A stretch of 64,000 nt of DNA, from contig JAAYYI010000055.1 of NCBI GenBank assembly GCA_012515445.1, positions 56,238 to 120,237 of the forward strand, in the 5' to 3' direction. The stretch is from Candidatus Bathyarchaeota archaeon (GTDB taxonomy: Archaea; Thermoproteota; Bathyarchaeia; Bathyarchaeales; Bathycorpusculaceae). This document shows, one piece after another, positions 57,341 to 59,351 of this stretch (the stretch's first letter is position 1; each line of letters begins with the position of its first letter). The position numbers were made by a program, and so were the translations under genes. The notes below the pieces were generated by a model, which made no database searches, had not been told where the DNA came from, and saw only the letters and a list, made by a program, of their open reading frames with translations.

Positions 57341-57415
57341 GGGCGAGTAGCTCAGTACGGATAGAGCATCAGCCTTCTAAGCTGAGGGTCAAGGGTTCAA
57401 ATCCCTTCCCGCCCG
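57341..57415 (+). tRNA. tRNA-Arg (anticodon TCT), with CCA following at 57416-57418
   Basis: D stem GCTC/GAGC, anticodon arm TCAGC-CTTCTAA-GCTGA, T arm AAGGG-TTCAAAT-CCCTT, acceptor GGGCGAG/CCCGCCC with one A-C mismatch. Confidence 0.9.
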
Positions 57416-57668
57416 CCACTAACACCCTTTTAGAGCCTAATTCTGTCTTTAATAGGTCAACATTTACTGTATGACCAATATGACCAATTATGTATTGTAG
57501 AGTTTGTTGATGATACTCAAACTGTGGTTTACCATTTATTAGTCCTAGGTAGTGCCTAGCTCTAGCGTATTTTATCTCTCCACTCTTGTTATGGAAAACT
57601 TGGATGCTAGAAACTTTACCACAAACTTCACAGTTAAACTGTTTACACTTAATCTGCATATCTATCAC
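57369..57668 (-). pseudogene. Integrase N-terminal fragment, int(N), with putative zinc motif
   Basis: MIDMQIKCKQFNCEVCGKVSSIQVFHNKSGEIKYARARHYLG...; runs into attL as VAGGKGFEPLTLSLE; in frame with int(C). Confidence 0.88.
57374..57405 (+). repeat. att site, tRNA-proximal copy (attL)
   Basis: CTTCTAAGCTGAGGGTCAAGGGTTCAAATCCC, within tRNA-Arg 3' half. Confidence 0.95.
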
Positions 57669-57716
57669 AAGTTGGGCGCTTGAGAGCTAGAAGTTGTATA
57701 TAATGGCCATTAAGAA

Positions 57717-57875
57717 CTAGTTTTGGAGCGTAGAAGGTGTGAGTGATTGTTGTTGTTTTTTCCAATCATTTTCTCTATCAATATGGTAAGCAATAGTAAT
57801 TAGTAATAAAGCAATAGACGCAATGACTGTTATACCTGTAAGCAGAGAAAAATCTAATGAAAATTCTGAAATAAT
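57717..57875 (-). CDS. Possible small single-TM protein with non-ATG start
   Basis: Open frame IISEFSLDFSLLTGITVIASIALLLITIAYHIDRENDWKKQQQSLTPSTLQN; only ATT-type starts available. Confidence 0.25.
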   Translation of the reverse strand: MISEFSLDFSLLTGITVIASIALLLITIAYHIDRENDWKKQQQSLTPSTLQN

Positions 57876-57999
57876 AAATTATGTAATAATTTGCCCAAAT
57901 TATTTGTCAAATTGTTTAAACTTATGACTACTCAATGGCTGTAGAGTCTTTTGTTGTTGGTATTCTGATGATTGGGCACCTAGAGATTGTAACATCTAT

Positions 58000-58413
58000 A
58001 TGACTAACAACACAGAAGCAATAAACTACGATAATAAAAGAGACATAGACTCAAAGCATAGAAAATTATTATCACACTCTGAGGCAGTAATTGCTATCTC
58101 TAAGAAAGCTAACAAAATCCATAAGAAAGTAATAGGGTGTAACCAACTATCAAGTTGGAATAGTCTTAAGTATATTATAATTAACTCTATTCAAGTAATA
58201 ACTAGTACAATTTCTAGTAAAATAGAAGCGCCTAACCTAAAAATTAGGCTTAAACCAAGTTTGTTAGAGTTAAAATCCTCCATAATAGATAGATTCTCTA
58301 AACCTCATGTTTCAGCCATGCATAAGTTAGAACTAGAGCTAGGCGTTACCACACACAATAGCAAAGTAAAAAACTGTCTTAGACAGGAAAGGAAGCTGTA
58401 CCGTACAACATAG
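58000..58413 (+). CDS. Hypothetical protein encoded by integrated element
   Basis: 137 aa, Lys/Ser/Ile-rich; no recognisable domain. Confidence 0.55.
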   Translation: MTNNTEAINYDNKRDIDSKHRKLLSHSEAVIAISKKANKIHKKVIGCNQLSSWNSLKYIIINSIQVITSTISSKIEAPNLKIRLKPSLLELKSSIIDRFSKPHVSAMHKLELELGVTTHNSKVKNCLRQERKLYRTT

Positions 58414-58523
58414 CTAAACTTCCAACTCTAGGATTGTTAATCTAGTAAAGAAACTTTGACGTAACTTAGTATAGAAGTGTAAACAAAAAACCAAATTAAG
58501 GTAAATCAAAATAATCAGGTTGA

Positions 58524-59351
58524 ATGTTTAAGAAAATAATCAGTCTTACCTTCATTATTGCTGTGGCTTTAGCATTAGCTTATGCAACCGATGTATCTAT
58601 GGGTGAATCTATAGAAGAGGCAACCATCAGAATTGTATCCCCTTCTGGAAAACAGGTTGAAAGAAATACAACTGTTGAGTTAAGGATTACTGTTGTTTTT
58701 GCGATGTCTGATAGGGTGCGTGCTGCTCCAAAAGGAGTAGAGATTTCATACAAGTTAGATAACGACTCTATTACACCACTTAATGATTTGGAGATGTTTC
58801 AATGGTCAAATGGATGGTGGGAAGTCCAAGGTAAGACATTGTTAGTTGACTTAGCTGAGGGTAGTCATAAACTAACTGCTTATTCTACAAGTAGTGCCGG
58901 TTTGAAAGCTAACACTACAACTAATTTTACTGTAGATACAAGCTATGAGTATCCCAAATTATCTGTTTTATCGCCTCAGAATAAGAATTACACCACATCA
59001 GAAGTTCCACTAGTCTTCTATGTGAATGGTAATATTTCAGATGGTTATGTTGACTTATCTATCTCTCCTTATTTGTCTAGTTATCCTATTCCTAATAAGC
59101 CCTTTCCAATTAACAACATGACGCTTTCTGAGCTTAAGGATGGGGATTACAAATTATACATTGGTGCTACTACAGAAAGAGGTAGAATAGATCAAATCAT
59201 TGAATTTTCAGTTAATACTAATTTCTTATACAAGAATCAGCAGATTCTAATAACAATAGGAATTATTGCGATAGTGTTAACAATTCTAGCACTAATAAAA
59301 TATAAGAGAGATAAGACTGAGAAGCTAGTAAGTAAGCAAAGTTTTCTCTAA
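58524..59351 (+). CDS. Secreted/anchored surface protein with Ig-like segments, encoded by integrated element
   Basis: N-terminal signal, PKLSVLSPQNKNYTTSEVPLVFYVNGNISDGYV, C-terminal TM IITIGIIAIVLTILALIKYKRDK-type; tail overlaps int(C) 3' end. Confidence 0.7.
   Translation: MFKKIISLTFIIAVALALAYATDVSMGESIEEATIRIVSPSGKQVERNTTVELRITVVFAMSDRVRAAPKGVEISYKLDNDSITPLNDLEMFQWSNGWWEVQGKTLLVDLAEGSHKLTAYSTSSAGLKANTTTNFTVDTSYEYPKLSVLSPQNKNYTTSEVPLVFYVNGNISDGYVDLSISPYLSSYPIPNKPFPINNMTLSELKDGDYKLYIGATTERGRIDQIIEFSVNTNFLYKNQQILITIGIIAIVLTILALIKYKRDKTEKLVSKQSFL

Follow-up and report, generated by a model that had tools for sequence, protein, structure and literature searches.

The integrated element and its split integrase

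A bounded integrated element of 2,790 bp, sited in a tRNA-Arg(TCT) gene, was identified in the window, i.e., the whole stretch of 64,000 nucleotides that was analyzed. The features of the element and its right flank are as follows.

57341..57418, + strand: tRNA-Arg(TCT), the integration target, reconstituted (ARAGORN; Rfam RF00005, E 1e-13)
57369..57668, − strand: int(N), the N-terminal portion of the split integrase; it opens with a CxxC Zn-ribbon-like motif, its probable start codon is the ATG at 57659 and it joins int(C) in frame in the circle
57374..57405, unstranded: attL core, 32 bp, identical to attR
58000..58413, + strand: 137-aa ORFan (p137), basic (pI 10), predicted helical, no homologue
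58445..58484, + strand: degenerate putative tandem operator, two 16-mers with a 24-bp period, located 39 bp upstream of the p275 start codon
58524..59351, + strand: p275, a predicted exported surface protein of 275 aa with a signal peptide, Ig-like repeats, a C-terminal transmembrane (TM) segment and a basic tail
59325..60209, − strand: int(C), the catalytic portion of the integrase, matching Phage_integr_3 (Pfam PF16795, 3.1e-10; PHROG 5127, 1e-12)
60164..60195, unstranded: attR core, 32 bp
60216..60255, + strand: host operator copy with 1 mismatch, just outside attR and the element, preceding a host surface gene
60277/60292-61659: this host surface gene, 460 aa

The host belongs to the Bathyarchaeia and has a Bathycorpusculum-type genome (genus Candidatus Bathycorpusculum); the genus is discussed in a paper on arthropod-gut archaea (PMC10684969). 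The GC content of the element is 34–35%, compared with ~43% for its flanks. The att repeat is exact over its 32 bp and copies part of the 3′ half of tRNA-Arg(TCT). Beyond the attR core, the next 13 bp (60196-60208) depart from the 3′ end of the tRNA at several positions, whereas most other bounded elements match the tRNA to its end; this divergent tail may reflect decay or a different original target. No exactly syntenic empty site was found in the genus, where only unoccupied copies of the same tRNA were present (e.g., L119-L123). An 18-nt inverted repeat (89%) pairs 57548-57565 in int(N) with 58333-58350 in the 137-aa ORF.

Closure of the circle yields a single uninterrupted integrase ORF of 383 codons. 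Residues R148, K192 and R235 are invariant in the integrase alignment (A1), and each of the five rows long enough to cover it has the HYL tyrosine. Thus, the att site lies inside both int and the tRNA gene, int is split, its ORF is restored on the circle and its product has the R, K, R and Y residues of a tyrosine recombinase. As judged from its sequence, the element is an SSV-type ("suicidal") integrated element in tRNA-Arg(TCT). In the PDB, the int(C) profile matched nothing but structures of the SSV1 integrase (E 0.007); the likeness of the window integrase to SSV1 is at the edge of detection only. The sole other member of the integrase family in the same genome is a distant fragment (C59, 34%). 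Similar to SSV1, SSV2, pSSVi, pTN3 and pT26-2, the element has its att inside int, and the gene is split by integration into a tRNA gene (PMC8371274). Different from such SSV-type elements, however, it is only 2.8 kb long and has neither a virus nor a plasmid backbone.

The N-terminal integrase part has relatives in L047, L051, L054, L060 and L067. Across one int(C) family, three unrelated-looking types of N-terminal domain were observed, namely a Zn-ribbon type (L047, L051, L055, L060 and L067), an RHH-like type (L056, L068, L076 and L081) and an "LxxPExF" type (L063, L064 and L077). Their occurrence on a single int(C) family suggests exchange of the int(N) module, as is also proposed in a chimera model (PMC8371274). 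At L074 (G057:C18), a region of 15 kb surrounding a single int(C) contains three int(N)-like stretches with 83% DNA repeats of ~100 bp, a pattern that would fit the insertion of several related elements next to each other.

The interval separating int(N) from int(C) holds just two ORFs of substantial length, and no replication gene was recognized there. Searches of Pfam, PHROGs and NCBIfam returned no Rep, primase, helicase or capsid match for the element, no HUH or Walker A motif was present in any circle frame of at least 45 codons and no iterons were found in the circle. These results agree with the first-pass annotation, which had described a split-integrase mini-element with two ORFs of 137 and 275 aa at these positions, a signal/Ig-like/TM surface protein as main cargo and no visible replication or capsid motif. 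Motif searches of the frames of at least 45 codons and family searches thus revealed no HUH or Rep-family initiator such as a rolling-circle mini-plasmid would have. Its PHROG matches are to the integrase only and include no capsid of a fusellovirus provirus. In the family searches, the element showed an integrase and none of the hallmarks of a virus, casposon, IS or conjugative element, and this combination defines a cryptic integrated element. The element is a variant of the known cryptic integrated elements with an SSV-type integrase.

Related elements in the family and class

Integrases related to int(C) were found in 42 of the 92 genomes of the family and, at a stricter threshold, in 55 of the 260 genomes of the class. 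Including the one in the window, 17 elements with related integrases were bounded by tRNA repeats, and their lengths ranged from 2.4 to 10 kb. A full-length integrase was restored on circle closure in 13 of them, and most of the integrations thus look undecayed. L093 and L064 failed to restore int, and two further decayed cases retained only the int(C) end (L075) or only int(N) (G007). At the latter site (L223:2389-8957), which is in a congener, the stretch comprising tRNA-Arg(TCT), int(N) and the int promoter is 70% identical to the window over 427 nt. The int(N) is frameshifted, and the 6.5 kb downstream contain two p275-family genes and a gene for a TIR protein; no int(C) was found at this decayed island.

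An all-against-all comparison showed that the integrase is the only gene common to all 17 elements. Among their 72 cargo proteins, nearly all of which are at least 100 aa long, the sole clear replication protein is the primase/helicase of L081. Otherwise, the cargo is diverse and includes NosD-type surface proteins, a C39 peptidase, HNH proteins, acetyltransferases, TIR and CBS proteins and others. Surface proteins were not enriched as cargo in general (12/63 vs. 24/153, p = 0.55). A recognizable Rep is missing from 16 of the 17 elements, and its absence is therefore a property of the class and not special to the element in the window. Larger relatives include L047 (9.2 kb), L067 (9.8 kb) and L081 (10 kb, with the primase). 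Of these, L047 is the nearest complete relative and has no recognized Rep. Among the bounded elements, L081 (313-10415, in G039) alone encodes a D5_N-type primase/helicase. Matches of the cargo set to tape-measure PHROGs may come from its 359-aa protein, and L081 is thus possibly virus-like, if small.

A recognized replication gene is also lacking from many of the cryptic integrated elements of Thaumarchaeota, among them NitUzo-E2 of 2.6 kb (Krupovic et al., 2019; PMC6563490). Similar to these, the elements described here are small islands with tRNA-type integrases and no recognized Rep, in which the integrase is the sole conserved gene. A split SSV1-like integrase is also found in the thaumarchaeal element NitEve-E3 (PMC6563490), and S-layer/Ig proteins occur as cargo in thaumarchaeal elements, too. 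Different from those elements, however, the host is a member of the Bathyarchaeia, the split integrase is the rule and, in the window, a host-type surface gene with a host exported-protein operator abuts int(C). PYG1 of Pyrococcus abyssi is likewise an integrase island for which no replication module has been identified and which is reported to have been seen as a circle (as cited in PMC8371274); unlike that of the window element, its integrase is listed there as being of the classical, unsplit type.

The cargo genes and the tandem operator

The 137-aa ORF sits in a stop-free frame of 161 codons. The longest frame in 1000 dinucleotide shuffles of the region was 139 codons, so the open frame is more than would be expected by chance. 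Its codon usage, in turn, was no better than that of shuffles. No homologue beyond chance level was found in the 260 genomes of the class, nor was there any match in phage records, the PDB, Pfam, PHROGs or NCBIfam, and a counterpart is absent from all related elements. Single-sequence structure models of the two cargo proteins had mean pLDDT values of 52 and 40, and that of p137 was helical at low confidence and too weak for a structure search. Several identities were considered for this ORF and rejected. Neither profile nor blastx searches supported the idea that the region is what remains of a surface gene, or of int, on the opposite strand. An HUH or Rep-Arvir initiator is contradicted by the missing HUH motif and sequence match, and the ORF is far shorter than ORF19 of SNJ2, the catalytic tyrosine of which is residue 283. 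The 137-aa ORF probably encodes an element-specific accessory or regulatory protein and is possibly not a gene at all. The first-pass annotation had also offered it as a novel replication factor; a Rep function is possible but unsupported, given its lack of conservation.

p275 is clearly coding, with a coding score well above shuffles, and its 3′ end overlaps the end of int(C) by 27 nt. The Ig similarity of its predicted product is weak and Big_13-like, and seven N-x-S/T sites are present. A Foldseek search with the predicted structure, which had been proposed for identifying the protein, returned nothing with E < 0.001, and the single-sequence model was poor. Matches to p275 were detected in 47 of the 101 relatives' genomes, the best ones at 30–34% identity, and no related integrase was found within the fetched flanks of the best-matching loci. 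As many of its relatives are chromosomal and away from integrases, p275 is of host type rather than the orphan it had been taken for. By sequence similarity, it is assigned to an abundant host family of exported Ig-like surface proteins.

Some members of this family do lie next to related integrases. The 877 ORFs of the surveyed loci were screened with a profile of p275 and seven of its chromosomal relatives. Beyond the loci of p275 homologues, it matched only in the window, in L093 (5835-6473, 1.3e-12) and in L075 (4480-5259, 7.9e-6). As in the window, the p275-family genes of L093 and L075, two loci of congeners, converge on int(C) and overlap its end by 27 and 21 nt, respectively. No further junction of this kind was found in an extra set of 30 integrase loci. 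A family member thus abuts int(C) in each of the three elements, and a fourth, decayed island contains two more. The objections foreseen in the first-pass annotation hold in part: most p275 homologues occupy chromosomal sites that have no related integrase, though these genes do not, and the 137-aa ORF is not conserved. As for homologues beside other integrases of this kind, the p275 family has them in L093 and L075 and the 137-aa ORF has none.

The QSFL end of these surface proteins would be fixed by the antisense int sequence, so that a shared QSFL alone would be no evidence of homology. Common descent of the linkage was not supported, as the int(C) sequences of the three elements did not form a clade in a tree of ~118 residues; repeated capture and cassette exchange are thus both possible. 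The integrase of L093 groups with that of L051, yet its last residues and the DNA at the junction with the surface gene (6447-6560) resemble those of the window element, a sign that cassettes may have been exchanged through the tail of int(C).

A DNA search was run with window positions 57669-58523 as query. The DNA upstream of p275 is 81% identical over 54 nt to that upstream of the L093 cargo gene; no operator was found upstream of the L075 cargo gene. The putative operator consists of two imperfect palindromes of 16 bp, roughly GTCAAGAAANNTTGAC, with a 24-bp period, and its end is ~37–50 bp from the start codon. With up to 3 mismatches allowed, the pattern had 101 matches in 21 of the 32 genomes of the genus, and a reversed control pattern had 0. 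Across the order, it was found in 2 of 69 genera. An ORF was present within 200 bp at 22 of 31 sampled sites, and 18 of these 22 ORFs encode signal-peptide proteins, compared with 65 of 268 (24%) in the background (p = 1e-7). Exported-protein genes are preceded by the operator across Bathycorpusculum and one other genus (window copies; L230-L259). The operator possibly marks an undescribed exported-protein regulon. The p275 copy has mismatches at 5 of 28 positions, whereas 1.1 million positions of shuffled element sequence contained no match with up to 6 mismatches. Given this operator copy, the cargo appears to be wired into the exported-protein regulon of the host.

Maintenance of the element and its significance

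A suicidal integrase combined with the lack of a replication gene poses a paradox, as each integration should be a dead end. We favor, with a probability of roughly 60%, a cryptic SSV-type element that carries p275 as host-type cargo under a host operator, has no replication of its own and is moved with help. As its anatomy shows, a circular form recombined through the 32-bp att core with tRNA-Arg(TCT) and thereby split its own integrase gene. p275 is a predicted exported, membrane-anchored Ig-like protein, and its promoter has a degenerate copy of the tandem operator of the exported-protein genes of the genus. With such a promoter, p275 should join the expressed surface repertoire of the host after integration. 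Host replication or another element would have to assist in copying and moving the circle, and exit from the chromosome would occur only if an intact related integrase were supplied in trans. Excision of relatives by an intact integrase in trans is reported for SSV2 and, with the pTN3 integrase, for TKV4 (PMC8371274). Helper dependence, which had also been raised in the first-pass annotation, is a reasonable inference. Counting against this favored reading are the degeneracy of the p275 operator, the int(C) of the three surface-gene elements not being a clade, the lack of a cargo-wide surface enrichment and the presence of only the distant fragment C59 in the genome itself.

The element might also be the degraded remnant of a larger plasmid or provirus that shed its replication genes after integration and is now trapped in the chromosome. 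Such a history fits the existence of the larger relatives L047, L067 and L081, the decayed state of L093, L064, L075 and G007 and the divergence of the attR tail from the tRNA. We regard it as rather unlikely, however, because the window integrase is intact across both halves and L047 has no recognized Rep at 9.2 kb either. Moreover, 13 of the 17 elements are intact and mostly Rep-less, so loss after integration would need to recur often and soon. That the element is a self-replicating mini-plasmid, with p137 as a novel initiator and an AT-rich origin in the interval that separates int from the ORF, seems quite improbable to us. Its unusually long open frame, the basic and predicted all-helical character of p137 and the divergent region of 29–33% GC beside the ORF would suit an initiator, and a suicidal integrase makes most sense if the circle persists outside the chromosome. 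Nevertheless, p137 has no homologue in the genomes, phages, PDB or family libraries searched, is missing from all related elements and has a shuffle-like codon score, and neither an HUH/Walker motif nor iterons were found.

The element might, finally, be a virus satellite, in which p275 would bind receptors or form a spike and so serve packaging or the control of superinfection rather than the host surface. In favor of this reading, a mini-element that lacks Rep carries a surface-protein gene next to its SSV-type integrase, and SSV-dependent plasmids such as pSSVi are known (PMC8371274). This explanation is highly improbable, as the relatives of p275 are chromosomal, p275 lies behind a host exported-protein promoter and has no match in phage records, and no capsid or packaging signature was detected. 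A more speculative extension of the favored reading, that is, of host-type cargo moved with help, is that the Rep-less split-integrase islands of Bathycorpusculum are surface-diversifying shuttles. Ig-like exports abutting int(C) would be carried with a regulon promoter, and each integration would add a host-controlled surface gene. We offer this idea only tentatively.

The replication puzzle is real, but it is common to the whole class, and the more interesting feature is the surface cargo at int(C) together with its operator. Our results suggest that such islands can transfer surface genes from cell to cell although they are unable to replicate on their own. The presence of many intact small elements in one archaeal family suggests a working strategy, and makes helper dependence testable. 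A cargo gene bearing the putative exported-protein operator of its host would couple surface variation in these archaea to gene transfer, and the operator itself may give access to a regulon of an uncultured lineage.
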